Source of the DNA: Pseudomonadota bacterium
GTDB taxonomy: Bacteria > Pseudomonadota > Alphaproteobacteria > Parvibaculales > Parvibaculaceae
Direction: 5' to 3'
Assembly (NCBI GenBank): GCA_021780275.1
Contig: JAJXZC010000363.1
Coordinates: forward strand, 1 to 20,663
DNA: 20,663 bases
Positions within the stretch are counted from its first letter, which is position 1. The number at the start of each line of letters is the position of its first letter. The notes below the pieces were generated by a model, which was not told the origin of the DNA, did not search any database, and worked only from the letters and a program-made list of their open reading frames with translations. Positions 2,358 through 20,390 of the stretch are shown in pieces. The position numbers and the translations under genes were made by a program.

Positions 2358-3017
2358 TCAGGCGGGACGTTTCAGCACAGCCAGCCAGCTGTAGCCGCGA
2401 TGGAGCGGCTGAAAATCGAGCGATGCACCATGCGCCGCGGCGATCTCGCTCAGCGCGTCGCGCAGGTCAGCGCGCGGGCTGACATGGAACCAGCGGAGCC
2501 AAGCGAAAAGCAGCGCCCGGAAAAAGCGGGGAAGCTCCTCCTGCTGGCCGAAATCGACGATATGAAGGCTGCCGCCCGGCGCGACATTGCGCATGGCCTG
2601 CTCGATTGCCTTGCGCCATTCCGGGATCATCGACACGGTGTAGGACATGAAGACACGCTCGAATTGCGGAATGCCGAAAGCGCGCGCCGGATCGAAATCG
2701 GTCGCGTCGCCCTGCGCAAAGCTCACGCGCTGTTCGAGCCGCGCCTTGCATGCCGCAGTGCGCGCCGTCGCAAGCATCTCCGACGAGATGTCCATGCCGT
2801 AGAACTCGGCATGCGGAAAGCGGCGGAGCGCCGCAATGATGTTGCGGCCCGTGCCGCATCCGACTTCGAGGACGCGCATCCCCGGCCGCGCATCGAGACC
2901 GGCGATGAGCCGGTCCCGGCCAAGGAGGTAATAGCGGCGCGTGAGGTCGTAGATATGCCTCTGGTTCCGGTAGACCCGGTCCATCAGATGCGAATGTCCA
3001 GCGTCGGCAATCGACAT
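2358..3017 (-). CDS. btaB: BtaB: SAM-dependent N-methyltransferase for betaine lipid synthesis
   Basis: A 219-residue class I methyltransferase with the SAM-binding motif VLEVGCGTGRN (about 49-59), the acidic loop FYGMDIS (about 72-78) and motif FAQGDATDFD. In characterised BtaB enzymes, three successive methylations convert diacylglyceryl-homoserine to diacylglyceryl-N,N,N-trimethylhomoserine. The ATG at 3017 is chosen because it gives the normal N-terminus (MSIADAGHSHLMDRVYRNQR) and lies 7 bases after the btaA stop. A longer frame reaching to 3194 only runs antiphase over btaA. The assignment rests on the methyltransferase fold plus its position directly behind btaA, the standard bacterial arrangement. 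Taken alone it could be called only a generic methyltransferase. Confidence 0.88.
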   Translation of the reverse strand: MSIADAGHSHLMDRVYRNQRHIYDLTRRYYLLGRDRLIAGLDARPGMRVLEVGCGTGRNIIAALRRFPHAEFYGMDISSEMLATARTAACKARLEQRVSFAQGDATDFDPARAFGIPQFERVFMSYTVSMIPEWRKAIEQAMRNVAPGGSLHIVDFGQQEELPRFFRALLFAWLRWFHVSPRADLRDALSEIAAAHGASLDFQPLHRGYSWLAVLKRPA

Positions 3018-3024
3018 GACGCCC

Positions 3025-6470: not shown

Positions 6471-6788
6471 TCAGCCGCGTTTAACCGGCAGGCCTGCCTT
6501 CTTCCAGCCTTCAATGCCGCCGGTAAGTTCGAAGAGTTCGCCCTCGCAGGCTGCAGCGAGCTTTCCGGCATTCGTGGTCGTGCGCATGCCGCCCTTGCAG
6601 TGAAAGACGACCTGATGCTTTCCCAGCGACTTCAGATCGTGCTGGCCGAGTTCCGACAGGGGCACGAGATGGGCGCCGGCAATATGCTCCGCGGCATGCT
6701 CGTTACGCTCGCGAATATCGACGAGCACGGCATCGCCCGCATCGAGCCATGATTTGACGGTGGCCGCATCGACCGGTTTCAGCGACAT
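6471..6788 (-). CDS. Single-domain rhodanese (sulfurtransferase)
   Basis: A 105-residue single rhodanese domain, probably cytoplasmic as there is no signal peptide. The six-residue active-site loop is CKGGMR (64-69), starting with the catalytic cysteine that would carry the persulfide and ending with the usual Arg. Family landmarks VLVDIRERNEHAAEHIAGA and LTGGIEGWKKAGLPV are present. The ATG at 6788 has GAGGAAAA directly upstream and overlaps the stop codon of the ArsR-type gene (ATGA), so translation is probably coupled. Pairing with a BigR-like regulator points to sulfane sulfur or hydrogen sulfide handling. Confidence 0.93.
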   Translation of the reverse strand: MSLKPVDAATVKSWLDAGDAVLVDIRERNEHAAEHIAGAHLVPLSELGQHDLKSLGKHQVVFHCKGGMRTTTNAGKLAAACEGELFELTGGIEGWKKAGLPVKRG

Positions 6789-7120
6789 CAGATTTTCCTC
6801 TTCGTGGCTCGCGCCTTTGCGGGCGGACAATAGATATCGGCAAGCGTTTCGATGACGCGCTGCGCCGCCGGGCTCGCGAGCTTGTAATAGATCGTCTGCG
6901 CTTCGCGCCGCGTGGCCACCAGCCCCAATTCCCGCAACAGTGCGAGGTGTTGGGAAAGCGCCGATTGGCTGATGCCGACAAGCTCCTGGAGTTCGCCGAC
7001 CGAGATTTCCCGGTCCGCGATCTGGCAAAGGATCAAAAGCCGCCGTTCATTGGCAAGCGCGCCGAGAAGCTTCGTTGCCTCCGCGGCACTCGCTTCCAGA
7101 TCCTTGATGTCCGCTGCCAT
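6788..7120 (-). CDS. ArsR-family repressor, BigR/SqrR-like (sulfide/persulfide sensor candidate)
   Basis: A 110-residue winged-helix ArsR protein with the recognition helix region LVGISQSALSQHLALLRELG and wing RREAQTIYYKL. Two cysteines, C32 (LLILCQIAD) and C98 (ADIYCPP), sit where BigR, SqrR and YgaV have their redox pair in helices 2 and 5; the ArsR metal motif (ELCVCDL) is absent. In those relatives the cysteines form a disulfide or polysulfide link that releases DNA. The ATG at 7120 is preferred: the predicted promoter at 7179-7206 would leave only about 10 leader bases before the alternative ATG at 7162. The gene overlaps the rhodanese start by 4 bases, and likely represses its own operon through the inverted repeat upstream. 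Confidence 0.87.
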   Translation of the reverse strand: MAADIKDLEASAAEATKLLGALANERRLLILCQIADREISVGELQELVGISQSALSQHLALLRELGLVATRREAQTIYYKLASPAAQRVIETLADIYCPPAKARATKRKI

Positions 7121-7177
7121 GACAGTACTCGCGCAAATCCCGTCGCCGCCCGCCGACGACATGGTTCAACGTCTCTT

Positions 7178-7422: not shown

Positions 7423-8904
7423 ATGGTAAAAGACAGCAAGCGCCACATCGACAGCCTCAAGGACGGACGCACCATCTTCATCGATGGACGGCGCGTCGCG
7501 GATGTGACCACGGACCCCGCCTTCGCCAATGCCGTCGCGACCGCAGGCAATTTCTACGATTTTCAGGCGGCACCCCAGAATATCGACGCGATGACCTTCA
7601 CCTCGCCCAAGACCGGCGATCAGGTGAGCCGCGCCTGGCAGCTGCCCCGCAACCACCGCGAACTCGTCGAACGGCGCGAAGCGCTCGTCAAATGGTCGCG
7701 CATGACCTGCGGCATGGTCGGCCGCTCGCCCGATCACGTCGCCTCGACCATGGCCGGCTTCCGCATGGGCCTGCACGTCTTCCACGAGAACAATCCATCG
7801 CGCGCCCGCGCGGTCGAGGGCTATTACGAATATGCCCGCGACAATGACCTCTACCTCTCCTACGTCATCATCAACCCGCAGTCCGACAAGGCAAAGTCCG
7901 CCAGCGGCCAGCCGGACCCTCATCTCGTCGCGTCGGTGGTGGACGAGGACTCGACCGGCATCACCATTCGCGGCGCGAAGATGCTCGCGACCAGCGGCAT
8001 CATGGCGAACGAGGTTCTGGTCTCCGGCTTCCAGGCCCTGCAGGCAGGCGATGAACCCTATGCCTTCACGGCGGCCGTTCCTATCGGCGCCAAAGGCCTG
8101 ACGCTGATGTCGCGCCGCAGCTATGAGCAGAACGCCACATCGACCTTCGACTACCCGCTCTCCGCCCAGTTCGACGAGAACGACGCCGTCATCTATTTCG
8201 ACGATGTGAAGATTCCGTGGGACCGCGTCTTTGTCTACAAGGACCTGAAGATGGCGCAGGCGCAGTGGCACGACACGCGCACGCATGTCTTCCAGAACTA
8301 TCAGTGCATGATCCGCCTGATGGTGAAGCTGCAGTTCCTGCTCGGCCTCGCCCGCAAGATCGCTGAAATCAACAACATCATCAATTATCCGCAGGTGCGC
8401 GAGACGCTCGGCCTGCTGGCCGCCAAGGTCAACAATATCGAGGCCCTCGTCATCGCGATGGAAGCCTCGGGCGAGAACTATCACGGCTATTACGTGCCGA
8501 ACCGCAGCATTCTCTGCACGGCGCAGGTGATCGCCCAGAACACCTATCCCGAAGTGGTGGAGGCCATCCGCACGCTGGCGGGCGGCGGCCTCATCATGGT
8601 GCCCTCCTCCTATGCCGATTTCAGCACGCCGGAAACCAACGCCATCATCCAGAAGACGCAGCGCTCTGTCAGCACCACGTCGGAAGGCCGTGTGAAGCTG
8701 ATGAAGCTCGCATGGGACGCGATCGGCTCGGAATTCGGCTCGCGCCATCTGCAATACGAGATGTTCTATTCGGGCCCGACCTTCGTCACGCGCGGAAACT
8801 CCTTCCGCTTCTTCGACTGGGATGGCGTCAAGGGATTCGTGGACGAGTTCATGAATTCCTACGACCTGCCTTCTGCTGGATCTTCGCGCTCCGCAGCGGA
8901 GTAA
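7423..8904 (+). CDS. HpaB-family FADH2-dependent monooxygenase, oxygenase component
   Basis: A 493-residue protein of the 4-hydroxyphenylacetate 3-monooxygenase (HpaB/PvcC, group D flavoprotein) family, with the acyl-CoA-dehydrogenase-like fold. Family-like segments are VKWSRMTCGMVGRSPDHV (about 90-107), GAKMLATSGIMANEVLV (about 185-201), IYFDDVKIPWDRVFVY (about 257-272) and FVTRGNSFRFFDWDG near the C-terminus. Such enzymes use reduced FAD supplied by a separate reductase to hydroxylate phenols or, in other members, N-heterocycles such as pyrrole-2-carboxylate. A matching flavin reductase lies four genes downstream. This is the first gene of the tight operon; the ribosome binding site (AAGCGGA) is modest. 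The family and cofactor use are secure, the substrate is unknown, and hydroxyphenylacetate itself is unlikely given the hydrolase-rich surroundings. Confidence 0.9.
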   Translation: MVKDSKRHIDSLKDGRTIFIDGRRVADVTTDPAFANAVATAGNFYDFQAAPQNIDAMTFTSPKTGDQVSRAWQLPRNHRELVERREALVKWSRMTCGMVGRSPDHVASTMAGFRMGLHVFHENNPSRARAVEGYYEYARDNDLYLSYVIINPQSDKAKSASGQPDPHLVASVVDEDSTGITIRGAKMLATSGIMANEVLVSGFQALQAGDEPYAFTAAVPIGAKGLTLMSRRSYEQNATSTFDYPLSAQFDENDAVIYFDDVKIPWDRVFVYKDLKMAQAQWHDTRTHVFQNYQCMIRLMVKLQFLLGLARKIAEINNIINYPQVRETLGLLAAKVNNIEALVIAMEASGENYHGYYVPNRSILCTAQVIAQNTYPEVVEAIRTLAGGGLIMVPSSYADFSTPETNAIIQKTQRSVSTTSEGRVKLMKLAWDAIGSEFGSRHLQYEMFYSGPTFVTRGNSFRFFDWDGVKGFVDEFMNSYDLPSAGSSRSAAE

Positions 8905-8910
8905 GCGTCG

Positions 8911-10107
8911 ATGCACGGATCGGTAATAGTCTCGCCGGATGAGATCCGGCGGCTCGCCTTTGTCGAGCATGGACCGGCATCGCTTCAGATCTCGGATACC
9001 GGCCCTCTCGCCGGTCTCGACTTCGCGGTGAAGGACCTTTTCGACGTCGCAGGCTATAAAACCGCCTGCGGCAATCCCGACAGGTTGCGCGACAATGCGC
9101 CCGCCGTCGCGACGGCGCCCTCCGTCATCGTGGCACTCGCCGCAGGCGCACGCCTCATCGGCAAGACGCATACGGACGAAGTTGCTTGCGGCATGTTCGG
9201 CATGAACCCGCATTTCGGGACGCCGATCAATCCCAGGGCGCCCAACCGCGCGCCCGGCGGCTCGTCCAGCGGTTCCGCATCGGCGGTCGCCGCGGGTCTT
9301 TGCGACTTCGCACTCGGCACCGACACAGGCGGCTCGATCCGCGTACCCGCGAACTTCTGCGGCCTTTATGGCCTTCGCACGACGTTCGGCCGCGTCTCGG
9401 TCGCAGGCGTCATGGCCATGGCACCGAGTTTCGACACGGTGGGCTGGCTCGCTCGCGACGCTGCCATGCTCCGCCGCGTGAGCGAGATCTATCTGGGTCC
9501 GGTGCACAAGTATTCGGCTCCGCGCCTACTGTTGGCTCGCGATGCATTCGACATTCCCGTGCGCGGCATCGGCGCGGCGCTTCTGCCCATTGCGAAGGCG
9601 CTCGGTGCAACGAACGAGATCACGCTTTTCAAGGAAGGCATCGATCATTGGCTCGATACGTTCCGCCCGCTTCAACTGCATGATCTCTGGTCGACGCTCG
9701 GCCAGTGGGGCACGATGCCGGGGCGCAACCTCAGCCAGGCGGTTGCCGAACGCATCGAGCTTTCATCAACCATCAAGCCGGAGGCCATCGCCGCAGCCGT
9801 CCTCAAGCGCGAGGCGCTGGCCGCGCGCCTCATCGACCTTCTCGGCGATGACGGCTTCATCGTCATCCCGACGGCACATGACCTGCCGCCACTCCGCGAT
9901 GCCCTGGTGTCCGCGCAGGTCGAGTTTCGCGAAAAGACGCTGGCGCTCACCTGCATCGCAAGCCTGACGCGCCTGCCCCAAATCAACATCCCCGCGACGA
10001 CCTTCGAAGATTGCCCGATCGGGCTTTCCCTGATCGCTGGCCCACGCGGCGAAGAGCGCCTTCTCGCATTCGCCGAAAGCCTTGGAACGCTGGACGGCAT
10101 CACATGA
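8911..10107 (+). CDS. Amidase-signature family hydrolase
   Basis: A 398-residue amidase with the Ser-cisSer-Lys triad: Lys41 in DFAVKDLFD, the Gly/Ser-rich GGSSSGSASAVAAG (116-129) with the cis-Ser, and the nucleophile Ser142 in GTDTGGSIRVPANFCGLYG. It is shorter than GatA (about 480 residues) and resembles the compact catabolic amidases and half-amidases. It would hydrolyse a carboxamide to acid and ammonia, plausibly a ring-opened intermediate of this operon. The ATG at 8911 follows the monooxygenase stop by 6 bases with GGAG at good spacing. Its stop overlaps the next start (ATGA), so translation is coupled. The substrate is not predictable. Confidence 0.93.
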   Translation: MHGSVIVSPDEIRRLAFVEHGPASLQISDTGPLAGLDFAVKDLFDVAGYKTACGNPDRLRDNAPAVATAPSVIVALAAGARLIGKTHTDEVACGMFGMNPHFGTPINPRAPNRAPGGSSSGSASAVAAGLCDFALGTDTGGSIRVPANFCGLYGLRTTFGRVSVAGVMAMAPSFDTVGWLARDAAMLRRVSEIYLGPVHKYSAPRLLLARDAFDIPVRGIGAALLPIAKALGATNEITLFKEGIDHWLDTFRPLQLHDLWSTLGQWGTMPGRNLSQAVAERIELSSTIKPEAIAAAVLKREALAARLIDLLGDDGFIVIPTAHDLPPLRDALVSAQVEFREKTLALTCIASLTRLPQINIPATTFEDCPIGLSLIAGPRGEERLLAFAESLGTLDGIT

Positions 10108-11027
10108 AGATTTTTCCCGACGGACAGCGCGACTTTGTCGGATATGGCCGCAATCGGCCCGATGCCCGCTGGCCCGGCGGCGCACGGCTCGCGCTCGTCA
10201 TCGTGCTCAATGTCGAGGAAGGGGCCGAACCTTCCCTGCCCGATGGAGACGCCGCGACGGAAATCGCCCTGACGGACGGCATTTTTGGCGAGGTTCCTGC
10301 GGGCAAGCGCGACTTCGTTGCCGAGACACTGTTCGAATATGGCTCGCGCGTCGGCTTCTGGCGCCTCCATGACCTTTTCGTCGAACGCGGGCTCCCGCTC
10401 ACCATCAGCGCCTGCGCTCAGGCGCTACAGCGCAATTCTGAAATCGCAGGCGCAATCCGCGAAGGCAAGTTCGACCTTTGCTGCCATGGCGACCGTTTCC
10501 TGCGCCAGTTCAACATGAGCGAGGATGAGGAACGCGACGCCATCGCCACGGCGGTGAAGAGTCTGCAACAAACGCTCGGCCGCGCGCCTCTTGGCTGGCA
10601 GAGCCGCTATTCGCCCAGCTCGCGCACGCGCTCGCTTCTCGTCGAGCACGGGGGCTTTCTTTATGACGCAGACTCCTACGCCGACGACCTGCCCTATTGG
10701 GTCGATGTGGCGGGCAAGCCGCATCTCGTCGTGCCGCACACATTCACGAATAACGACAATCGCCTGGCGACCGCGAAACTCGCGACGGCATCGGAGTTCT
10801 ACGAACATCTTGCCAGCGCCTTTCGCGTGCTTCACGCCGAAAGCGCAAGCAACCCGCGCATGATGACGGTGAGCCTTCACGCCCGCATTTCCGGGCAGCC
10901 CGCGCGCTTCGAAGGCATCAGCCGTTTTCTCGATCTCGTGGCGAACCATGACGATGTGTGGTTCGCCGGGCGCTCGGAGGTCGCGCAGCACTGGGTCACC
11001 GAACATCCGCCGGTGACCACACCATGA
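10104..11027 (+). CDS. PuuE-like polysaccharide-deacetylase-fold hydrolase (allantoinase/amide hydrolase type)
   Basis: A 307-residue NodB-fold protein. The N-terminus DFVGYGRNRPDARWPGGARLALVIVLNVEEG and the segments SRYSPSSRTRSLLVEHGG and FLYDADSYADDLPYWV follow PuuE, the bacterial allantoinase that opens the hydantoin ring in purine breakdown. The segment normally reading like a conserved HGW is here CCHGDRFLRQF (about 126-136), so the active site may differ. The ATG at 10104 overlaps the amidase stop and gives the family N-terminus; longer upstream in-frame sequence only overlaps the amidase gene. A second deacetylase-fold enzyme lies later in the operon, so two distinct C-N bond hydrolyses of this type are likely. 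True chitin or peptidoglycan deacetylation is unlikely in this context and without a signal peptide. Confidence 0.85.
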   Translation: MKIFPDGQRDFVGYGRNRPDARWPGGARLALVIVLNVEEGAEPSLPDGDAATEIALTDGIFGEVPAGKRDFVAETLFEYGSRVGFWRLHDLFVERGLPLTISACAQALQRNSEIAGAIREGKFDLCCHGDRFLRQFNMSEDEERDAIATAVKSLQQTLGRAPLGWQSRYSPSSRTRSLLVEHGGFLYDADSYADDLPYWVDVAGKPHLVVPHTFTNNDNRLATAKLATASEFYEHLASAFRVLHAESASNPRMMTVSLHARISGQPARFEGISRFLDLVANHDDVWFAGRSEVAQHWVTEHPPVTTP

Positions 11028-12529
11028 GCGCCTCCGAGCTTCTCATCCGTGGCGGCCTCGTTGCCGATCCGGCGACCGGCACAGTCGAACCGCGCGATCT
11101 CCTGATCGCCGACGGCCGCATCGCCGCCATCGACCGTCCGGGGGCAATCCTCTCGGCCGGCGCCGTCCATGACGCATCGAACCGCCTGATCCTTCCGGGC
11201 TTCGTCAACGCGCATACGCATGGGCATTCCAATCTCGTCAAAGGCGTCGCCGACCGCTGGACGCTCGAAGCCTCGCTCACCAAAGGGCCCTGGCTCGCAG
11301 GCGCGCGCGACGCCGAGACGATTTATCTCTCCACCCTTCTCGGCGCGCTCGACATGCTCAGCAAGGGCTGCACCTCCTGTTTCGATCTCGTCTATGAATT
11401 TCCGCTGCCGACCAAAGCGGGCTTTGCCGCAGCCGCACGGGCCTATGCCGACGCAGGCATGAAGGCCGTGCTCGCGCCCATGATCGCCGACAAGACGCTC
11501 TTCACCGCCATTCCCGGCCTTCTCGACTCATTGCCAGAAGATCTCCGCAAGACCGTAAGCCAGTTCGATCTTGGCAGCGCGGACGCGACCTTTGCCGCCA
11601 TCGAAGAGATCATCGCCGCGCGAGACGAATTGCCTGAAGGCATAGAACTGGCCATCGCGCCGACGATCCCGCATCACTGCTCCGAAGAATTCCTCGCGCG
11701 TTGCGTCGCGCCGGCGGAGCGCCACGGGCTCCGCATTCACATGCATATCGCAGAGTCGCGGCTTCAGGCCGTCACCGCGCGGCAGCTCTGGGGCGTCTCG
11801 CCGGTGCGCTACCTCGCCGATCGCGGCATCCTGCGCCCCGGCTTTGTCGCCGCCCACGGCGTCTGGCTCGACGGGCACGACCTCGATCTCCTGGCCGAAC
11901 ATCAATGTTCCATCGCGCATATCCCGGCGAGCAATTTCCGCCTCGGCTCCGGCATGGCGCATGTGCGCTCCATGCTTGAACGCCGCATCAATGTGGGTCT
12001 TGCGACCGACGGCGCCAATTCTTCCGACGCACTCAGCATGCTCCAGGCCATGCGGCTCGCCTCCTACGCCTCTCGCGGATTTTCAGGCCCGCGCGAGAAT
12101 TGGCTCAGCGCCATTGAGACGCTGAGACTCGCGACACAGGGCAGCGCGAACATAACCGGCTTCGCGGATACCGGCCGCATCGCCGTTGGTTATGCCGCCG
12201 ATCTCGTCTTCTTCGACCTGGACCACCTCGATTTCATTCCCCTGACAGATCCGCTCAACCAGATCGTCACGGCGGCAGACTCCGCCTCCGTCCGTGACGT
12301 CATGGCGAATGGACGAATAGTTGTCTCCAACGGACGCTTCACCGCCATAGACACATCGAACTTGCGCGAGCGCGTGCAGGACACCGTATTCAGGCTTTCC
12401 ACGAAGCTCGCCGACGCGCGGCCCCTCGCGGCGCGGCTGGAACCGCATGTCGTCGCCTTCGCCCAAAAGGCTTCCGAAGAGCCACTCGATATCGAGCGCC
12501 TTGTAAATCCGCGTGAGAAAAAACAATGA
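11024..12529 (+). CDS. Amidohydrolase-superfamily deaminase/hydrolase (ATZ/TRZ, SsnA-like)
   Basis: A 501-residue cytoplasmic metal-dependent amidohydrolase. The metal ligands are visible: PGFVNAHTHGHSN (H64, H66), IHMHIAES (H239/H241), AAHGVWLDGHD (H278) and LATDGANSSD (D329). The N- and C-terminal segments (LLIRGGLVADPATG; GYAADLVFFDLD ... VRDVMANGRIVVSNGRF) form the usual composite beta-sandwich. This subgroup includes guanine deaminase, S-adenosylhomocysteine deaminase, hydroxydechloroatrazine hydrolases and SsnA-like proteins, which remove an amino group or halide from a nitrogen heterocycle. The ATG at 11024 overlaps the previous stop (ATGA), and its own stop overlaps the flavin reductase start. 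The C-terminal tail of about 70 residues after the metal barrel is longer than in minimal deaminases. The substrate is open. Confidence 0.9.
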   Translation: MSASELLIRGGLVADPATGTVEPRDLLIADGRIAAIDRPGAILSAGAVHDASNRLILPGFVNAHTHGHSNLVKGVADRWTLEASLTKGPWLAGARDAETIYLSTLLGALDMLSKGCTSCFDLVYEFPLPTKAGFAAAARAYADAGMKAVLAPMIADKTLFTAIPGLLDSLPEDLRKTVSQFDLGSADATFAAIEEIIAARDELPEGIELAIAPTIPHHCSEEFLARCVAPAERHGLRIHMHIAESRLQAVTARQLWGVSPVRYLADRGILRPGFVAAHGVWLDGHDLDLLAEHQCSIAHIPASNFRLGSGMAHVRSMLERRINVGLATDGANSSDALSMLQAMRLASYASRGFSGPRENWLSAIETLRLATQGSANITGFADTGRIAVGYAADLVFFDLDHLDFIPLTDPLNQIVTAADSASVRDVMANGRIVVSNGRFTAIDTSNLRERVQDTVFRLSTKLADARPLAARLEPHVVAFAQKASEEPLDIERLVNPREKKQ

Positions 12530-13038
12530 CCGTCATGTCCTCCACCATCGGCGCGCAGGACTTCCGCAAGGCCTGCTCCCTCTTCACCACTGGCGTTGCC
12601 GTGGTTACGGCCCGGCATGGCGATATGCAGGTCGGCATGACGATCAATTCCTTCGCGTCCGTTTCTCTCGAGCCGCCGCTCGTTCTCTGGAGCCTCCGCG
12701 ACACATCGCGCTCGCGCCCGATTTTTGAGAAGGCTGGCAGCTTCGCCATTAATATTCTCTCTGCCGAACAAATGGCGTTGGCGCAGCACTTCGCGAAAGG
12801 CGCCGAGGACGTCTTCGACGGGCACGAACTCGTTCCCTCGGCTCTCGGCTTGCCGCTTATCGCAGATGCGCTTGCCCATCTCGAATGCCGGACCCGCCAT
12901 ATCTATGACGCAGGCGATCACCGCATCTTCGTGGGTGAAGTCGTGGACCTCAATTCGCGCGACGGCACGCCGCTCGTCTTCTTTCAGGGCCGTTTCCTGC
13001 CCGGCCTTCCCGATACCAATGTTTCAGGCGCCGCATAA
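12526..13038 (+). CDS. Flavin reductase (HpaC-like), partner of the monooxygenase
   Basis: A 170-residue flavin-reductase-like FMN-binding split-barrel protein. Landmarks are FRKACSLFTTGVAVVTA (about 13-29), VGMTINSFASVSLEPPLVLWSL (two stretches, about 37-58), FAINILSAEQ (about 71-80) and the C-terminal FFQGRFLPGL. It would use NAD(P)H to supply reduced flavin to the HpaB-type oxygenase encoded upstream, in the cytoplasm. The start codon overlaps the amidohydrolase stop by 4 bases and its stop overlaps the next ATG by one base (TAATG). The presence of both oxygenase components in one operon supports a complete two-component system. Confidence 0.93.
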   Translation: MTVMSSTIGAQDFRKACSLFTTGVAVVTARHGDMQVGMTINSFASVSLEPPLVLWSLRDTSRSRPIFEKAGSFAINILSAEQMALAQHFAKGAEDVFDGHELVPSALGLPLIADALAHLECRTRHIYDAGDHRIFVGEVVDLNSRDGTPLVFFQGRFLPGLPDTNVSGAA

Positions 13039-13763
13039 TGAGAAAGATCATCCGCATCGGCCATATCACGCCGTCTTCCAATACCGCGCTCGAGCCGCTC
13101 ACCTACGCGATGAACGAGCCGTTGAAGCACCGGATGACGCATCATTTCTCGCGTATGACAGTGACGCATCTTGCCTTAAGCGGATCGTCCGAAGCGCAAT
13201 TCCAGATGGAGCCTATGCTCGCGACCACGCGCTTGCTCGCCGACGCGCCGCTTGACGCGATCCTCTGGAACGGAACCTCGGCAAGCTGGCGCGGACTCGA
13301 GAACGACGTCGCTCTCTGTGAGGCGATTACGAGAGAGACCGGAATTGCCGCCTCCTCGACAACCATCGCCTTTTACAAGACCTTCCGGGAGAACAGATGG
13401 CGCCGCATCGCGCTGGCTGTTCCCTACACGCCCGACATTACGGAGCAGATCAGTGTCGAATATGCGCGTCAGGGCTTCGAGGTTGTGGGGGCCTCCAACC
13501 TCGGCGCGCGGGAGAATGTCGAGATCGGCGCGACCGGACCGGAACCAATACGCAAGCTGCTGCGCACAGCGGCGAAGAGCGAGCCCGATTGCATTGCCGT
13601 CGTCTGCACGAATTTCAACGCGACCGAGCTTGTTGAAGAAATGGAAGCCGAACTCGGCATTCCGATTGTCGACTCCATCGCGATCACCTTCCGTGAAGCC
13701 TGCCTGATGGCGGGCGTGGACCTCCGCATCCCCGGCTGGGGCCGGGTTCTCGCCGGAAACTGA
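13038..13763 (+). CDS. Asp/Glu racemase superfamily enzyme, arylmalonate-decarboxylase-like (single catalytic Cys)
   Basis: A 241-residue member of the maleate isomerase/Asp-Glu racemase/arylmalonate decarboxylase superfamily. Racemases and maleate isomerase have two catalytic cysteines. Here the first position is glycine, G79 in ILWNGTSASWRG, while the second is kept as C190 in IAVVCTNFNA. This single-Cys GTS arrangement is that of arylmalonate decarboxylase (G74, C188). The C-terminal GVDLRIPGWGRVL also matches that family. It therefore probably decarboxylates or otherwise forms an enolate-type intermediate rather than racemising. The gene overlaps the flavin reductase by one base and precedes the asparaginase by 3 bases. 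The family is secure; the reaction is inferred. Confidence 0.85.
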   Translation: MRKIIRIGHITPSSNTALEPLTYAMNEPLKHRMTHHFSRMTVTHLALSGSSEAQFQMEPMLATTRLLADAPLDAILWNGTSASWRGLENDVALCEAITRETGIAASSTTIAFYKTFRENRWRRIALAVPYTPDITEQISVEYARQGFEVVGASNLGARENVEIGATGPEPIRKLLRTAAKSEPDCIAVVCTNFNATELVEEMEAELGIPIVDSIAITFREACLMAGVDLRIPGWGRVLAGN

Positions 13764-13766
13764 GAC

Positions 13767-14780
13767 ATGACCGTGGCCACTGCCTTTACCGGGAAAATCG
13801 CGGTGCTCACCACCGGCGGCACGATTGCGTCGACCTATGATCGTGCGAGCTGCGCCGTTCATGCAACGCTCGATGCAAGCGTCCTTCTCGCCGGATTGCC
13901 GGCTGGCGACCTGCCGCCGGTCGAAGGACGCAGCATCCTTGCCCGCAACAGCTATGCGCTATCCCTCGATGACGCTCTCGCCATCGTCAAAGCCATAGGC
14001 GAGGCGCGGCGCCGCGCCGACATCGCGGGCGTCGTCGTTACGCATGGAACAGACACGCTCGAAGAGACCGCCTTTCTGGCCGACCTTTTGCTCGAACCGG
14101 GAAAGCCGGTTGTCTTCACCGGCGCTCAGGCCTCCGCCGACGAACCCGACCGCGACGGACCGCGCAATCTCGGCGATGCGATCCGTGTCGCGGGGACGCG
14201 CGCCGCGTCAGGGCTCGGCGTGTTGGTCGTTTTCGACGGCGACATACTGTCCGCCCGCGATGCCACCAAAAGGCATAGCTCGCGGCGCCACGCCTTCGCC
14301 GCGACGAACGGGCCCATAGGCACCGTGGACCGCGACGTGGTGCGCCTCACGCGAAGGCCTGCGGGCTTCACGCGTTTCGCCGAAGCGAGCCTCGCAACGC
14401 CCGTCGATCTCGTTACGCTGACACTCGGCGGCGGCGACAGAGTCCTGAAGCTCTGCGCCGAGGGAGGTGCGCGAGGGCTGGTGCTCGCGGCAACCGGGCG
14501 CGGAAATGCCACGCCGAACATCGTTGTGCTTGTGGCGCAACTCCATGCACGAGGCATTCCCGTCCTCGTCACTTCGCGTTCGCCGGAGGGCCGGGTCGAG
14601 CCGATCTACGGACAGGGCGGCGGCGCCGATCTCGAAAAGGCAGGCGCCATTTTTGCGGGCGACCTCACAGGCCCCAAGGCGCGGCTGCTGCTGTCGCTGA
14701 TCCTCGGCCAACCGACTACCAGCGACGTCGCCGCCATCGTTCATTCCATCGCCAATTCATGCATCGAGGAGAGACCCTGA
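13767..14780 (+). CDS. Asparaginase/glutaminase-family amidohydrolase
   Basis: A 337-residue asparaginase-fold protein. The first active-site motif is LTTGGTIAS (nucleophile Thr19), the second [10 protein letters not shown] (91-100, T95-D96), with a conserved Lys region RDATKRHSS near 167-175 and [10 protein letters not shown] before it. There is no signal peptide, so it is cytoplasmic. The enzyme would release ammonia from an asparagine-like or half-amide substrate. It begins 3 bases after the previous stop and its TGA overlaps the next ATG (TGATG). Within a catabolic operon it may act on a pathway amide rather than free asparagine; that is inference. Confidence 0.9.
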
Positions 14781-15676
14781 TGACGAAGGAAATACTGGTT
14801 GCCTACGGCATCGACGTCGATGCAGTCGCAGGCTGGCTTGGCTCCTATGGCGGCGAGGACAGCCCTTGCGATATCTCGCGTGGCGTCTTCGCGGGCGAAA
14901 TCGGCATTCCCCGGCTTCTACGCATGTTCGAGCGCTTCGGCATCGAGACGACATGGTTCGCGCCCGGCCATTCCATCGAAACTTTTCCCGACGAAATGAA
15001 GGCGGTCGCCGCTGCCGGTCACGAGATCGGCATGCACGGCTATTCGCATGAGAACCCGCTGATGATGACGCAGGATCAGGAGGCGGCCGTCATCGACAAA
15101 TCCATCGAACTCATCACGAAATTGCAGGGTCGCCCGCCCGTCGGCTACGTCGCGCCCTGGTGGGAATTCAGCGCGGGCACGATCGACCTGCTGCTCCAGC
15201 GCGGCATCCTGTACGACCACAGCCTGATGCATAACGACTTCTTTCCTTACTACGCGCGGAAAGACGAGAGCTGGTCAAAGATCGACTACGGCAAATCCGC
15301 CGAGACGTGGATGAAGCCGATGAATCGTGGAAAGGAAACGGATCTCGTCGAGATTCCCGCCTCCTGGTACATCGACGATCTGCCACCCATGATGTTCATG
15401 AAGGCATCGCCCAACAGCCACGGCTTCGTCAATCCGCGCGACATAGAAGAACTCTGGCGCGACCAGTTCGACTGGGTCTATCGCGAATATGACTACGCGG
15501 CTTTCACCATTACGATCCATCCGGACGTGTCCGGCCGCCCGCAGGTGCTCTCGATGCATGAGCGCTTCTTCAGCCACATGGCGAGCCATCCCGGCGTGCG
15601 CTTCGTAACCTTCGAGGAGATTGCCCGAGATTTCATCGAGCGTTATCCACGCGGCACGCAAGGCCCGAGGCCCTGA
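14780..15676 (+). CDS. HP0310/PgdA-like polysaccharide-deacetylase-fold hydrolase; cyclic imide hydrolase candidate
   Basis: A 298-residue NodB-fold enzyme that follows Helicobacter HP0310 (HpPgdA) very closely, including the metal ligands D14 ([19 protein letters not shown]), H86 and H90 ([10 protein letters not shown]), plus [29 protein letters not shown] and the C-terminal [19 protein letters not shown]0310 is reported as a peptidoglycan deacetylase, and a close relative in Pseudomonas was purified as a cyclic imide hydrolase, from memory. With no signal peptide and surrounded by amidases, hydrolysis of a cyclic imide or amide ring is the more likely role. The ATG at 14780 has an excellent GAGGAGAG site and overlaps the asparaginase stop. 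Cytoplasmic location is expected. Confidence 0.88.
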
Positions 15677-15681
15677 CGGAC

Positions 15682-15984
15682 ATGTGCGGCTTCTGCGGAT
15701 CGTTCAGCGAACACAGGCATTGGAGCGCCGGACCATTGACGGCGTCCCGACAAGGCGCCGTGCGCATTCGTATTGCGAATACAGCAGGCGAACTCGCCGC
15801 GCCTGCCGGCGTGCGCCTGATGGCGTGGCGCGACCGCTTTCAACTGACCGGACCGACCGGCAAGCGCGAGCTGGCGACCGACCTCGCCGGCATCTGGCGC
15901 GCCGTCGACAGGCTGGGCCGCACCATGCCGGATCCACTCGATGAGGCATTTCTCGAGTGCCTGCGAGGACGGGTGGAGGAATGA
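15682..15984 (+). CDS. Small MCGFCG protein of unknown function, linked to CobW GTPase
   Basis: I do not recognise a characterised family. The 100-residue protein begins MCGFCGSFSEHRHWS, giving a Cys-x2-Cys pair at positions 2 and 5 and two histidines at 11 and 13, a possible metal site. The rest is mixed alpha/beta with FQLTGPTGKRELATDL and LAGIWRAVDRLGRTMPDPLDEAFLECLRG. It lies 5 bases after the deacetylase-fold gene and its stop overlaps the CobW start (ATGA), so it is co-translated with a metal chaperone. The MCG start resembles class II glutamine amidotransferases, but the protein is far too short for that domain. A metal-receiving or metal-delivering partner is a reasonable guess, no more. 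Confidence 0.8.
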   Translation: MCGFCGSFSEHRHWSAGPLTASRQGAVRIRIANTAGELAAPAGVRLMAWRDRFQLTGPTGKRELATDLAGIWRAVDRLGRTMPDPLDEAFLECLRGRVEE

Positions 15985-17009
15985 CCAGCCGGTCCTACGT
16001 CATTGTGGACGTGCTGACGGGTTTTCTCGGCGCAGGCAAGACATCGCTTGTACGGCGGCTTGCTGAAACGGGCGCGCTTTGCTGCGTGGCTGTGCTGGTC
16101 AATGAATATGCGGATATTCCCGTCGATCAGAACCTGATGGGATTGTCGGGCCTCAAGGCCGGCACCTTCGCAGATGGTTGCCTCTGCTGCGCGACCGATG
16201 GTGACCTTCGTGCATCTCTCCTGCAACTTCTTGAAGATCGCGCGAGCGGCAAGGTGCCGCATTTCTCGCGCGTTCTGATCGAGACATCGGGCATCTCCGA
16301 TCCAGCCTCGCTCCTCGCCACTCTCGTCACCGATCCAATGCTTCGCCCGCGTCTCCGGCTCGGCCGCGTCGTCACGCTGGTCGATCTCTGCCATGCGCCT
16401 GCAACATTGGCCGAGCAACCCGAAGCCGTCGCGCAGATCGTCGCGGCGGACGTCGTTCTCTTCACCAAATCCGACATGGCGGACGAGAACGAGATCGAAG
16501 TGGCCCGCGTCACGGTAAGTACGATCAACCCGATCGCCATATTGCGTGAATGCGACCCGCATGACAGCCTCGACCCCTTCGACCGTCACGCGCTGGAAAC
16601 GAACAAGGCGAGAGCGCCACTCGCATCGCCAGCACACGCTCATCATCACGGCATTGCCGCGACCGTTCTTCGCTGGCCTGCATCTGTCGACTGGGCCGTC
16701 TTCGCAAGCTGGCTGTCGCTGTTGCTGCACCGGCACGGACCCAACATCCTTCGGATGAAGGGAACAATGACTATTGCGGGCGAAGAGCAGAACGGGCCTG
16801 TCGTCATCCAGTCCGTGCGCCACATCGTCCACATGCCGGAACATATGGCTCAGTCGGTGGCCAATGCGGGCACCGAGATCGTCGTCATCGTGCGCGAGAT
16901 CGACCCCACGCTTATCCGGCGCTCCTTCGAAACCTTTCTCGCCCAGGCCGAATGCAAAATACGCCCCCCAGAGAACGGTTTGCCCCAAAACCATGCGGCG
17001 ATTGCCTAG
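15981..17009 (+). CDS. CobW/G3E-family GTPase, metallochaperone
   Basis: A 342-residue G3E GTPase. The Walker A motif is GFLGAGKT (14-21), followed by NEYADIPVD (41-49), the metal-binding GCLCC (66-70), ETSGISDP (101-108) and the guanine-specificity TKSD (162-165). A short His-rich stretch, AHAHHHG (218-224), joins it to the C-terminal CobW domain. Such proteins insert zinc, cobalt or iron into target enzymes using GTP. Its likely clients are the metal-dependent hydrolases of this operon. The ATG at 15981 has GGTGGAGG upstream and overlaps the stop of the small MCGFCG gene. It is the last gene of the tight operon; 374 bases follow without a convincing gene. Confidence 0.92.
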   Translation: MTSRSYVIVDVLTGFLGAGKTSLVRRLAETGALCCVAVLVNEYADIPVDQNLMGLSGLKAGTFADGCLCCATDGDLRASLLQLLEDRASGKVPHFSRVLIETSGISDPASLLATLVTDPMLRPRLRLGRVVTLVDLCHAPATLAEQPEAVAQIVAADVVLFTKSDMADENEIEVARVTVSTINPIAILRECDPHDSLDPFDRHALETNKARAPLASPAHAHHHGIAATVLRWPASVDWAVFASWLSLLLHRHGPNILRMKGTMTIAGEEQNGPVVIQSVRHIVHMPEHMAQSVANAGTEIVVIVREIDPTLIRRSFETFLAQAECKIRPPENGLPQNHAAIA

Positions 17010-17383
17010 ATTTTCACCATGGATTCTGCGGCGCCTCGGGATCGCGCCATCGCCCAACTGGTACGAGCATTGCTAGGTGGTTCCTTGCTCCGAGTGACCG
17101 GAAAACCGGATCGGGCCGACCTCCATCAACGCGCGACACATGCGCCGTAAATGCGTCGGATTCCGGCTGGTCCCTGGGGCAGATGAGTAAGCGTTTGGGA
17201 AACTCGCCGATGTCCAGTGAAGCAAGCGTCGCGATGAAAATGGAGAACTGAATCCGCCTCGTGCCAAAGCGTCAAATCTGTCCCTGACGCATAGGCGCGG
17301 CATCGGCAATTTTGCCGCGACATCGTTTTCCTGAATGCGCTTCGGGCGCCACGCTCCGAAGCTCAATCGTTCCGAGAGTATCC
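17010..17383. other. Intergenic gap of 374 bases without a convincing gene
   Basis: No reading frame here looks coding. A 43-codon frame from the ATG at 17019 and antisense frames across the gap have no ribosome binding site and no family resemblance. The gap contains one clear stem-loop at 17296-17319 and a ribosome binding site (GAGAG) before 17384. It probably separates two transcription units and holds the promoter of the second, but I see no strong -35/-10 pair. Confidence 0.5.
17296..17319. repeat. Stem-loop with two alternative pairings upstream of the ArcS-like gene
   Basis: CGCGGCA (17296-17302) pairs perfectly with TGCCGCG (17313-17319) around a 10-base loop. The inner CGGCAATTTTGCCG (17304-17317) can instead form its own short hairpin, so the two pairings exclude each other. 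The only T-rich stretch downstream is CGTTTTCC, so a terminator is possible but not clear. A similar hairpin occurs at 20480-20497. Confidence 0.4.
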
Positions 17384-18403
17384 ATGGTTACCATCATCGA
17401 CCGCGACCAGCGCTTCCTCGAATCCTCGCAGAAGATTGAAAGCCCCTTCCAGCTCGATCCGACGCTTTGCCTCTACAGCCCGCAGGACAATGTCGACTCG
17501 CTCTCGCATCCGCGCATTGCGGCATGGCTCAACTTCGTGCGGAACGAGTATGAACCGAAGCTGCCCAAGGCGAAGCGTCGCGTTCTGCTCTTCATGCCCT
17601 GCACTAAGACCAAGCCCTACCCCTTCTCCTCAGAACACAAGGCGATCAACCAGCGCCTGATCGACTCCGGATTCCGGCCGACGTCGCGCCAATATCTGCC
17701 GCAGGAACTTCAGGCCCGCCTCGAGCCCTCATTTTCGCAGGAAGTGCTGAACATCTCGCCGCTCATCGACGATGATGGCTTGCTCATCCACCGCATGGTG
17801 ATTTCCGAGCCGATGGGCGTCGTGCCTTACGAACACATCGCCGAATATCGCGGCCTGCCCTCGCCGGCGACCGCCTATGACGATCCGGGGCTTTTCGAAA
17901 AACGCGGCAATGCCGTCTCGCCATGGCGTGCGGATTCGACAGCGACCGCCATTTCCGCGAACCGCTGGAAATGGGGCGACGAGGAGCGCCGTGCCTATGT
18001 GGTGATGCACAACGCCATGGCGGAGGCGGTCGCCGCCGTCGTCGCGCGGATCGGCCACAACTATGACGACATTGTTTCCTGGGTTGCACCGGGCCTCACT
18101 CATCGCAGCTTCGTCATCGGTCGCGACGAACGCTCAGCCAACAATGTCGCCGCCTCGCGCAAGGTCGGCACAACGCGCCTCGAACTCATCGGCGCGAACG
18201 ACCATCTGCCCGACGGCAAGAAGATCACCTGCCTGCCCACGCCAGAGCAATGCAAGGAAGCCGTGGTGCGCCTCGCGGATCGCCTCGGCACCGACCTTAC
18301 CCATGCCTATGGCGTCTATGCACGCGGCGGCGCCAACGCAACGCCGCTCGCCCTGCCCGAGCTTCTCGACGACTTGATGGCGCGTCTGCGCCCGACAGCT
18401 TGA
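17384..18403 (+). CDS. DUF5591-type protein with the archaeosine synthase (ArcS) catalytic signature
   Basis: A 339-residue protein. Residues 72-85 read PCTKTKPYPFSSEH, an exact match to the PC-x3-KPY-x2-S-x2-H signature described for archaeal ArcS. The core begins RRVLLFMPC (about 65-73). It continues with VISEPMGVVPYE (139-150), TAYDDPGLF and WKWGDEERRAY (196-205), which parallel the ArcS core segments around PLGVVPRE and YD-P. ArcS acts on the nitrile of preQ0 in archaeal tRNA. This protein lacks the TGT-like and PUA domains, so tRNA binding is not evident. The ATG at 17384 has GAGAG at good spacing; upstream in-frame sequence has no family character. It precedes the decarboxylase-like gene by 19 bases and lies among catabolic genes, which suggests small-molecule amidino/nitrile chemistry. 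The domain match is strong; function is unknown. Confidence 0.8.
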   Translation: MVTIIDRDQRFLESSQKIESPFQLDPTLCLYSPQDNVDSLSHPRIAAWLNFVRNEYEPKLPKAKRRVLLFMPCTKTKPYPFSSEHKAINQRLIDSGFRPTSRQYLPQELQARLEPSFSQEVLNISPLIDDDGLLIHRMVISEPMGVVPYEHIAEYRGLPSPATAYDDPGLFEKRGNAVSPWRADSTATAISANRWKWGDEERRAYVVMHNAMAEAVAAVVARIGHNYDDIVSWVAPGLTHRSFVIGRDERSANNVAASRKVGTTRLELIGANDHLPDGKKITCLPTPEQCKEAVVRLADRLGTDLTHAYGVYARGGANATPLALPELLDDLMARLRPTA

Positions 18404-18422: not shown

Positions 18423-19400
18423 ATGACATCAATGAAACTGAAAATCGGCGTTAGCGACAGCGACAGGACGAGGCCGCTGGCGAATGGCGAAGTCTCGCTC
18501 GATGGCATCGATGCGGAAATCTCGCTGATGGGCGTACAGGCGCTCTTCAACAAGCAGCTGAAAGATCACACTTTCGACGCTTGCGAATTTCCCATCGCGA
18601 CTTATCTCCGCACGCTGGAAACGCCGGAACGCCCCTATGTGGCCGTACCGCTCTTTCCCTCACGGCATTTCCGCCTTTCCTGCGTCTTCATCAACAAGAC
18701 GAAAGGCATCAGGACGCCTGCAGACCTTGCGGGCAAGCGCATCGGCCTCATGGTCTTCGACATGGCGGCAGCGGTCTGGCTGCGTGGCATTTTCGAGGAG
18801 CATTTCGGCCTGCCGCGTACCGCTCCCATTTATGTGAGCGGCGGTCTCGAAGCGCCGCGCTCGGGCGACGAACATCCGCAATTCTATCCGGACCAGTTCC
18901 GGATCGAGCACCGCACCGATGCGAGCCTCGCGGCGCTTCTCGAAAGCGGCGAGATCGACGCGCTTTATACCGCCCGCGCGCCCAGCACATGGCCATCGGC
19001 AAATGTCGGGCGGCTGTTCGAGAATCCGATGGAAGCCGAACTCGCCTATTTCGAGAAGACCGGCATCTTCCCGCCAATGCATATTCTCGCGATCAAGCGT
19101 CCGCTGGTCGAGGCCGATCCGACGCTGCCGCGCAAGCTCTTCAATGCGTTCGCCGCCGCGCAGGAAGTTGCCCGCTCAAAGCTCTTCGACTCGGCGGCTC
19201 TGTCCACCATGTTGCCCTGGCAGCTCGAAGCCCTGCTCGGTGCCGAGGAAAAACTTGGCAAGGACTATTGGCCTGTCGGCTTTGCGAAGAACCGGGCGAT
19301 GCTCGACGTTTTCATCCGCTACATGCTGGAGGATGGCCTCATCACCACGCCCTTCACGCCCGAGAGCATTTTCGACGGTGCAGATATTCTTTCAACCTGA
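18423..19400 (+). CDS. 4,5-dihydroxyphthalate decarboxylase-like protein (periplasmic-binding-protein fold, no signal peptide)
   Basis: A 325-residue protein of the family annotated as 4,5-dihydroxyphthalate decarboxylase, related to NMT1/SsuA-type binding proteins. Segments include KIGVSDSDRTRPLANGEV (about 7-24), FPIATYLRTL, VAVPLFPSRHFRLSCVFIN, TPADLAGKRIGLM and WPSANVGRLFENP. There is no signal peptide or lipobox and no transporter permease or ATPase gene nearby, which favours a cytoplasmic enzyme over a solute receptor. If it is a decarboxylase, it could act on a hydroxylated acid made by the HpaB-type enzyme. The ATG at 18423 follows GGGGAGAGGCGAAG. It lies 19 bases after the ArcS-like gene and 24 before the AraC gene. 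The binding-protein alternative remains possible. Confidence 0.8.
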   Translation: MTSMKLKIGVSDSDRTRPLANGEVSLDGIDAEISLMGVQALFNKQLKDHTFDACEFPIATYLRTLETPERPYVAVPLFPSRHFRLSCVFINKTKGIRTPADLAGKRIGLMVFDMAAAVWLRGIFEEHFGLPRTAPIYVSGGLEAPRSGDEHPQFYPDQFRIEHRTDASLAALLESGEIDALYTARAPSTWPSANVGRLFENPMEAELAYFEKTGIFPPMHILAIKRPLVEADPTLPRKLFNAFAAAQEVARSKLFDSAALSTMLPWQLEALLGAEEKLGKDYWPVGFAKNRAMLDVFIRYMLEDGLITTPFTPESIFDGADILST

Positions 19401-19424: not shown

Positions 19425-20390
19425 ATGACGCAATCGGCAGGTAGCTGGCAGAACCTCTGCACCGAAGCCGTTCCTCCGCGCGACCGCCTGGACTATTGGC
19501 ACGAAGCGACGAACCGCCTCTTTCCGCCCACACGCCTCAGCCGGTCGAGTCATGAAGGCTTCTACGGCCATGTCTCATGGCTCAAATTCGGTGAGGTAAC
19601 ACTCGCCAATATCGTCTCGACGAGCCTCGATGTGACGCGAGGCGAACGCGAAATCACCCGCGACGACGATCGCTGGTATGAGATCAATGTCCAGATCGAC
19701 GGGACAAGCGCCTTCACCCAGGACGGACGAGAGGTCACGGCGGGCCCGCGCTCCCTCGTTCTCTACGATAGTCGACGGCCATACCAGATGCGCTTCGAGG
19801 GGCCCTATCGGCAACTCTCGCTGAAGATTCCGCGCGAAGCACTGCGCGACCGCGTGCCGAATATCGGCGCGCTCATCGCGAGACATATCCCGGCAGACGG
19901 CATCCCCGGACGCTTCTTCTACGATTTTTCCGCCGCGCTCTGCGACGCACCGGAAGGCATTCCCGGATATATCGCCTCGCGTCTCGAGGAACACACACTT
20001 GACCTTCTGGCCACGGCCTTGCTGGGAGCGACGGCGGAACCTGCCGCCACCGTCAACCGCATTTCCCAGCTCGACCGGATAAAGGCCTACATCCTGGACA
20101 GGCTGGACCAGCCCGACCTCACGCCCAGCGCCATCGCGGAGGCGCACCAGATCTCGCTTCGCCATCTCTACGCACTCTTCGAGGCGGAGGAGCACCAGGT
20201 CGCGCGCTGGATTCAGGCGCATCGCCTCGACCGCATCAGACGAGACCTCGCCGATCCGCTGAAGCGCGGCTGGCCGATCAACACCATCGCGCTCAGTTGC
20301 GGCTTCAAGGACTTCTCGCATTTCAGCCGGAGCTTCCGGCGGCAATATGGCATCTCGCCCCGCGACTACCGCAACAGCCTGACGCACTGA
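19425..20390 (+). CDS. AraC-family transcriptional regulator
   Basis: A 321-residue regulator with an N-terminal sensing domain of the AraC-binding-like type seen in FeaR-like proteins (about 15-205; WYEINVQIDGTSAFTQDGREV, two stretches, and SLVLYDSRRPYQMRF). A linker follows, then the double helix-turn-helix domain (about 215-318): first helix pair DLTPSAIAEAHQISLRHLY, second NTIALSCGFKDFSHFSRSF, ending RQYGISPRDYR. Such proteins usually activate a nearby catabolic operon when a pathway compound binds. The start has GGAGAGAG upstream. It follows the decarboxylase-like gene by 24 bases, so it may be autoregulated with it. It is the only plausible pathway-specific regulator in the window. Confidence 0.92.
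   Translation: MTQSAGSWQNLCTEAVPPRDRLDYWHEATNRLFPPTRLSRSSHEGFYGHVSWLKFGEVTLANIVSTSLDVTRGEREITRDDDRWYEINVQIDGTSAFTQDGREVTAGPRSLVLYDSRRPYQMRFEGPYRQLSLKIPREALRDRVPNIGALIARHIPADGIPGRFFYDFSAALCDAPEGIPGYIASRLEEHTLDLLATALLGATAEPAATVNRISQLDRIKAYILDRLDQPDLTPSAIAEAHQISLRHLYALFEAEEHQVARWIQAHRLDRIRRDLADPLKRGWPINTIALSCGFKDFSHFSRSFRRQYGISPRDYRNSLTH

Follow-up and report, generated by a model that had tools for sequence, protein, structure and literature searches.

According to the available part of PMC11298593, the archaeosine synthase (ArcS) of T. kodakarensis adds lysine to the nitrile of 7-cyano-7-deazaguanine (preQ0) in transfer RNA (tRNA) and in the free 5′-nucleotide, and acts very slowly on the nucleoside. 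An earlier view, as the accessible text of PMC5485725 has it, was that ArcS is an amidinotransferase using ammonia from glutamine; the same text describes QueF-like (QueF-L) as proceeding via a cysteine thioimidate. The DNA of Vibrio phage nt-1 contains dPreQ0, dADG (an amide) and dG+, the phage has its own ArcS homologue, and its authors suggest that some phage ArcS may also act as amidohydrolase (PMC6884629, in the portion available). Here we describe ArcSl, an ArcS-like DUF5591 protein encoded on a 20,663-nt stretch of Parvibaculaceae DNA (contig JAJXZC010000363.1, assembly GCA_021780275.1; hereafter the window). The occurrence of such a stand-alone relative of ArcS in a bacterial operon for purine-like catabolism is real, conserved and unusual. 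We propose, with a confidence that falls a little short of even, that an alphaproteobacterial pathway for the breakdown of a purine-like base, most likely 7-deazaguanines, has recruited ArcSl as a stand-alone enzyme with the ArcS/DUF5591 fold.

ArcSl carries PCTKTKPYPFSSEH at residues 72-85, the exact PC-x3-KPY-x2-S-x2-H motif that the first-pass annotation had recognized, in which the cysteine is Cys73. Archaeal sequences served to verify that this motif is an ArcS signature. A chance match is ruled out, as the motif is expected 4.9e-8 times in ArcSl given its own composition and 4e-6 times in the six frames of the window, compared to one occurrence observed. The reading frame is a genuine coding sequence, because codon changes relative to Parvibaculum sedimenti are mostly synonymous (96 versus 16 non-synonymous) and the G+C fraction at third codon positions is 0.78. 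Among homologues, the motif is intact in all 120 listed of the 670 found, counting the query's own cluster; of 43 short archaeal relatives, 42 have it intact, and the one without is a 109-aa fragment. The match to the Pfam profile of DUF5591 (PF17884) reaches 31.9 bits (cut-off 26), aligning only residues 46-91 with profile positions 2-43 of 150, and this cut-off is exceeded in 8 of 12 relatives' genomes. ArcSl matched no second Pfam family up to E 1, so no tRNA-guanine transglycosylase (TGT)-like or PUA domain was seen, in agreement with its earlier description as a stand-alone protein of 339 residues.

Homology between ArcSl and ArcS, over the core domain and beyond the motif alone, is almost certain. 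In a profile comparison, 67 ArcSl sequences aligned with 36 short ArcS at a probability of 96.7 (E 3.5e-10, 136 columns), and a comparison of ArcSl with a mixed set of four ArcS and viral sequences gave 92.9 (E 3.8e-7). The signature is common to 67/67 ArcSl and 36/36 short ArcS, and a second motif, SEP[ML]..VP.E, occurs in 67/67 and 35/36, respectively. Eleven columns are invariant across six ArcSl and three outside sequences, including Cys73, Pro78, Tyr79, Ser82, Ser141, Pro148, Tyr165 and Asp166. As outside sequences we used proteins of a Haladaptatus plasmid, of Sulfolobus virus STSV2 and of Vibrio phage nt-1, and 43 short DUF5591 proteins; the latter were reached via the STSV2 protein, are mostly from Sulfolobales where named, and include one labelled "Archaeosine synthase, short". 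Searching the phage collection with P0001 returned 8 records (best E 0.3), and with the Haladaptatus domain 7 records (best E 7e-5, Sulfolobus viruses). A plasmid search with P0001 gave 8 records, the single full-length match being Rhizobium ACO-34A.

The structural comparison proposed with the original annotation also favored kinship. ArcSl matches the core fold of the ArcS domain in AF0587 (PDB 2q07), an archaeal protein deposited as uncharacterised, with 138 residues aligned. In a Foldseek search of the PDB, nothing was found at E<=0.001, and AF0587 ranked fourth with E 0.48; by sequence, a single ArcSl protein had no PDB match up to E 10, and the family profile retrieved AF0587 only (E 1.5).

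Short ArcS proteins, such as P0131 of Saccharolobus shibatae, are like ArcSl stand-alone DUF5591 cores with PC-x3-KPY-x2-S-x2-H and SEPM..VP.E, and their core secondary-structure elements follow in the same order. They differ in being archaeal and 188 aa long, whereas ArcSl, at 339 aa, has extra conserved segments inserted between the core elements. Full-length ArcS (NF040592, NF053620; Haladaptatus L019) has the signature and core domain in common with ArcSl but also contains TGT-like and PUA domains, which ArcSl lacks, and ArcSl falls below the NCBIfam archaeosine synthase cut-offs (30.1 vs 600 bits; 26 vs 440 bits). ArcSl has the ArcS signature and core fold, yet neither its domain layout nor the curated cut-offs qualify it as an ArcS. 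The DUF5591 protein of phage nt-1, which is the sole BFVD match at E<=1e-3, is stand-alone like ArcSl but deviates from the signature, its first Pro, Lys and His being replaced (LCTTTRPYENSRKW); the open reading frame (ORF) after its gene resembles the GTP cyclohydrolase FolE, as read from the translation. A possible analogy is offered by QueF-L, in which a Cys attacks the preQ0 nitrile to give a thioimidate (PMC5485725, text as available); it belongs to the T-fold superfamily and is termed non-homologous to ArcS in the title of that paper.

Two further archaeal loci are of separate note. The Haladaptatus plasmid carries two ArcS-like genes, each with DUF5591 and each annotated as a tRNA-guanine transglycosylase; they lie beside an AAA-domain gene, in what is possibly a DNA-modification or defence island. 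Sulfolobus virus STSV2 (L020:2920-3477) encodes a stand-alone short ArcS, annotated as hypothetical.

The neighbors that had been named for ArcSl are present in the window, namely an HpaB-type oxygenase with a flavin reductase, an amidase with other amide hydrolases, a decarboxylase-like protein and an AraC regulator. We compared gene content across 18 loci (L001-L013, L018, L033, L034, L035 and G310, the latter comprising L021, L037 and L038), which derive from 13 genome contigs, one Rhizobium plasmid, an order survey (three) and a class survey (G310). L014-L017 and L027-L032, short stubs that come in part from loci already counted, were left out. Genes were counted from tblastn matches, and boundaries in unannotated loci, set by ORF picking, are approximate. 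L002 is a 9.6-kb contig ending within the cluster, and its 29% deaminase match is a cross-hit that we did not count; nor did we count the ArcSl match of G113 (E 4.8e-4), which spans 52 residues only.

The decarboxylase-like gene comes after ArcSl in 16 of the 18 loci. Equally frequent are the TRZ-type amidohydrolase (16/18) and an N-hydroxylase-like flavoprotein whose Pfam matches include lysine/ornithine N-monooxygenase (16/18; G310 has a further copy ~23 kb off), followed by the HpaB-type oxygenase (counting the L007 copy, cut by the locus edge at 47 aa), the amidase, the PuuE-like hydrolase and the 8-oxoguanine-deaminase-like enzyme (each 15/18). Other partners are a class III transaminase (13/18), the flavin reductase and an aldehyde dehydrogenase (12/18 each), the arylmalonate-decarboxylase-like protein (11/18) and a histone deacetylase (HDAC)-like hydrolase (10/18). 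Among 397 genomes of one order, ArcSl was found in 7, 4 of which are already among the 13 loci, and a decarboxylase at 71-76% identity adjoins ArcSl in the same 7; 14 other genomes pass E 1e-60 with decarboxylase relatives at 35-42% identity. Were the two genes independent, identical 7-genome sets would have a probability of 3e-15, a figure that is overstated, as the genomes share descent, and is no true probability.

The proposed tie between ArcSl and the hydrolases is conserved in 16/18 loci, and the cluster very probably serves N-heterocycle catabolism. There is good support for a purine-like ring as the compound broken down. We considered the canonical urate-allantoin pathway as the cluster's job and rejected it: 5-hydroxyisourate (HIU) hydrolase is present in 13/13 genomes and lies outside the fetched ArcSl locus in 12/13, and the PuuE-like protein scores below the allantoinase cut-off. 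The first-pass annotation had put forward two substrate ideas, breakdown of a pyrrolopyrimidine and amidine synthesis. The former fits the neighbors better and the latter worse, because decarboxylase-like, 8-oxoguanine-deaminase-family and allantoinase-like enzymes travel with ArcSl; the substrate itself is unproven. Whether it is a 7-deazaguanine (preQ0, preQ1 or queuine) we regard as evenly balanced.

The lysine addition by ArcS, the thioimidate of QueF-like and the amidohydrolase activity suggested for phage ArcS lead us to the hypothesis of a nitrile attack finished by water. Cys73 of ArcSl would form a thioimidate with the nitrile at C7 of a preQ0-type compound, and water, rather than lysine or ammonia, would convert this thioimidate to an amide or acid. 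That ArcSl catalyses precisely this nitrile hydrolysis is possible, though we consider it rather unlikely. The adjoining 4,5-dihydroxyphthalate-decarboxylase-like enzyme would then take the C7 carboxylate off 7-carboxy-7-deazaguanine, yielding 7-deazaguanine; the transaminase and aldehyde dehydrogenase could supply the same acid from preQ1, the aminomethyl base. For the later steps, which are read from enzyme families, the HpaB-type flavin monooxygenase may oxidise the pyrrole ring to a product that would resemble 8-oxoguanine, the 8-oxoguanine-deaminase-family enzyme may remove the 2-amino group to yield a deaza-urate, and the allantoinase-like, TRZ-type and amidase enzymes may open the rings, with a barbiturate bearing a carboxymethyl group as intermediate. 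The arylmalonate-decarboxylase-like enzyme would finish a substituted malonate-type product. This chain from HpaB oxidation to substituted malonate is chemically coherent and wholly inferred. A dedicated 7-deazaguanine catabolic pathway of this kind, in which the ArcS fold is turned to nitrile hydrolysis and which runs via deaza-urate and barbiturate-like intermediates, is our tentative suggestion.

Several observations weigh against this proposal. T. kodakarensis ArcS is inactive on the free preQ0 base, as stated in the available part of PMC11298593, and a Cys thioimidate mechanism for ArcS itself is suggested by analogy with QueF-like. A full-length QueC match was found in 3/13 genomes and QueF in 7/13, so preQ0 would need an outside source in most genomes. 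QueC was counted only if 208 of 210 positions were covered, other matches being partial (34-76 positions, 19.9-24.5 bits); the uncurated tally is 13/13 at E<=0.001 and 10/13 over cut-off. Six genomes have neither full-length QueC nor QueF and by inference need preQ1 or queuine from outside; some are metagenome bins, so this absence is soft. An Rfam scan of the window and 11 loci (L002, L005, L011, L013 and all loci numbered L022 or higher excepted) revealed no preQ1 riboswitch, its sole match being a tRNA in L010, and we recognised neither a transporter for queuine or preQ0 nor a salvage enzyme among the cluster genes. The YhhQ-family protein Vut_1 occurs in 4/13 genomes; Q_salvage (PF10343) had no match anywhere, controls included, and is uninformative. 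Nor does the 8-oxoguanine-deaminase-family enzyme fix the substrate, because its family is broad, with triazine hydrolases among its nearest solved relatives. The three Bradyrhizobium loci keep ArcSl, decarboxylase, HpaB and deaminase, but flavin reductase, arylmalonate-decarboxylase-like protein, transaminase and aldehyde dehydrogenase are missing from the fetched stretch, which makes the proposed route variable in part. Sibling HpaB clusters on Thioclava, Caballeronia, Roseateles and Paracoccus plasmids (53-58% identity) have no ArcSl in the fetched stretch. Finally, two of the 18 loci, G310 and L010, are without the decarboxylase partner, the best relatives in their genomes reaching 27-28% identity, and in L010 no cluster gene lies within ~30 kb of ArcSl.

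These two exceptional loci differ from each other in content. In L010, ArcSl is beside a cytidine-deaminase-fold protein and a hydroxypyruvate-isomerase-like protein, along with CocE-type hydrolases, short-chain dehydrogenase pieces and rod-shape genes. In G310, ArcSl is flanked by a Rieske ferredoxin and molybdenum-hydroxylase subunits; nearby are a barbiturase/cyanuric-hydrolase family enzyme, a RutB/biuret-hydrolase-like enzyme, dihydroorotase/dihydropyrimidinase-type enzymes, xanthine permease, ureidoglycolate lyase, allantoicase, PuuE-UraD, HIU hydrolase and urate oxidase. Some 10-27 kb from ArcSl lie an amidase (44%), a flavoprotein (42%), an ATP-binding cassette (ABC) ATPase (50%) and a ureidoglycolate-lyase-like protein with 59% identity to that of P. 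sedimenti. G310 is a second purine-like catabolic region, differently built. As an observation in its own right, its three pieces make up a large N-heterocycle region uniting a Rieske oxygenase, a molybdenum hydroxylase, a barbiturase-family enzyme and urate genes.

The rejected free base, the missing riboswitch and transporter, the broad deaminase family, the inconstant steps and the sibling HpaB clusters keep a pterin or other guanine-like substrate a live rival. On this explanation, the ring broken down by the cluster is a different guanine-like or N-fused one (pterin, 8-oxoguanine, isocytosine or a triazine derivative), on which ArcSl performs a thiol-based addition or hydrolysis. The HpaB siblings without ArcSl point to monooxygenase chemistry that is not tied to ArcSl, and the deaminase-type enzymes come from broad families. 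Yet ArcSl keeps the ArcS signature, the second motif and the fold in full, and DUF5591 proteins with a studied role act on preQ0 (PMC11298593) or accompany preQ0-derived bases (PMC6884629), as far as the available parts of both sources go; we judge another ring to be possible but on the whole improbable.

The constant decarboxylase partnership would be left unexplained if ArcSl instead added an amine (lysine, ammonia or a polyamine) to a nitrile, with the transaminase, HDAC-like hydrolase and aldehyde dehydrogenase processing the amine part. Such a role is in keeping with the lysine addition to preQ0 by ArcS (PMC11298593, in part) and with the frequency of these three genes across the 18 loci, but all three are missing from the fetched stretch of the Bradyrhizobium loci, and we consider it decidedly unlikely. 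Stand-alone domains are also seen in the short archaeal ArcS and in the phage nt-1 protein, and nt-1 DNA bears dG+ (PMC6884629, in the portion available), as might be expected if ArcSl were a tRNA- or DNA-modifying archaeosine-type enzyme merely near catabolic genes. Against this, each of the 13 genomes has exactly one Tgt, full-length QueC is rare, and the catabolic partners recur in 16/18 loci, making such a role very improbable; the QueC, QueF and Tgt counts also led us to reject queuosine synthesis. As originally supposed, the context of ArcSl is small-molecule catabolism and not tRNA modification. It is similarly hard to credit that ArcSl, through a uracil-glycosylase-like fold, strips the sugar from a deazapurine nucleoside. 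We retain the breakdown of 7-deazaguanines as our working proposal and list below the genes of the window to which it refers.

Table 1. Features of the window, with coordinates in nucleotides.
Feature	Coordinates	Strand	Remarks
ArcSl, stand-alone ArcS-like DUF5591 protein	17384..18403	+	339 aa, ATG at 17384, motif residues 72-85
Codons of PCTKTKPYPFSSEH (residues 72-85)	17597..17638	+	position computed from start 17384
HpaB-type flavin monooxygenase, oxygenase component	7423..8904	+	above Pfam cut-offs of HpaB_N and HpaB
Amidase	8911..10107	+	NF006169 430 bits, cut-off 391
PuuE allantoinase-like hydrolase	10104..11027	+	TIGR03212 325.6 bits, below cut-off 424.6; mechanical ORF starts 10011
TRZ/ATZ-type amidohydrolase, deaminase superfamily	11024..12529	+	ATG 11024 chosen; mechanical ORF starts 10958
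Flavin reductase	12526..13038	+	family scans
Arylmalonate-decarboxylase-like protein	13038..13763	+	GTS at first racemase Cys place, CTN at second
Asparaginase-type amidohydrolase	13767..14780	+	family scans
Second polysaccharide-deacetylase/allantoinase-fold hydrolase	14780..15676	+	ATG 14780 chosen; mechanical ORF starts 14759
Small 100-aa protein without family match	15682..15984	+	stays with cluster in several relatives
CobW-type GTPase	15981..17009	+	ATG 15981 chosen; mechanical ORF starts 15957
Gap preceding ArcSl, 374 bp	17010..17383	.	87% identical to P. sedimenti gap over 347 bases
Decarboxylase-like protein, relative of 4,5-dihydroxyphthalate decarboxylase	18423..19400	+	PDB 9jp7 E 1.7e-59
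AraC-family regulator	19425..20390	+	family scans
Rhodanese-domain gene with ArsR-type regulator	6471-7162	-	divergent, directly upstream of catabolic cluster
DUF3419 protein (PF11899), then methyltransferase	2358-4290	-	

The HpaB-type oxygenase falls below the NCBIfam equivalog cut-off of 4-hydroxyphenylacetate 3-monooxygenase (323.2 vs 480.2 bits). It is 99% identical to its P. sedimenti counterpart, compared to 79-96% for the other cluster proteins, which suggests that it is under unusually strong constraint. Its siblings on the Thioclava, Caballeronia and Roseateles plasmids (L042, L044, L045; 53-56% identity, no ArcSl in the stretch) sit in clusters with a flavin reductase, a cupin or DUF4437 protein, an amidase, DUF2848 and a branched-chain-type ABC transporter. 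The flavin reductase of the window is the probable partner of the oxygenase. Family scans of the TRZ/ATZ-type amidohydrolase started one codon after its chosen ATG.

The arylmalonate-decarboxylase-like protein scores 63.3 bits against PF17645 (cut-off 25.9) and does not reach the NCBIfam equivalog cut-off of 225. Its GTS, which we take to replace the first racemase cysteine, is kept together with CTN in all seven sequences read out of 12. The CobW-type GTPase may serve as a metal chaperone for the hydrolases. The decarboxylase-like protein had no NCBIfam match. The gap before ArcSl has stops in all three forward frames, and a flavoprotein gene fills its place in 15/18 relatives' loci. One weak 21-residue match in the gap (E 5e-4), to one of five flavoproteins tried, may be a remnant of a decayed flavoprotein gene. 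The window stops short of the deaminase and flavoprotein genes, both of which lie downstream in the closely related P. sedimenti locus; the deaminase of L001, encoded beyond the window end, exceeds the 8-oxoguanine deaminase cut-off of NF006055 (617.7 vs 532 bits). The DUF3419 and methyltransferase pair resembles a BtaA-BtaB betaine-lipid pair.

Our literature search, made within one library, returned no description of ArcSl or DUF5591 and no described route of queuine or deazaguanine degradation; a catabolic use of the ArcS family would be new. Queuine and its precursors are bacterial products that are passed on to animals and plants. If our proposal is true, the genes of the ArcSl cluster close the 7-deazaguanine cycle, an RNA-modification fold is shown to be reused for catabolism, and ArcS chemistry could be dissected without tRNA in stand-alone enzymes.
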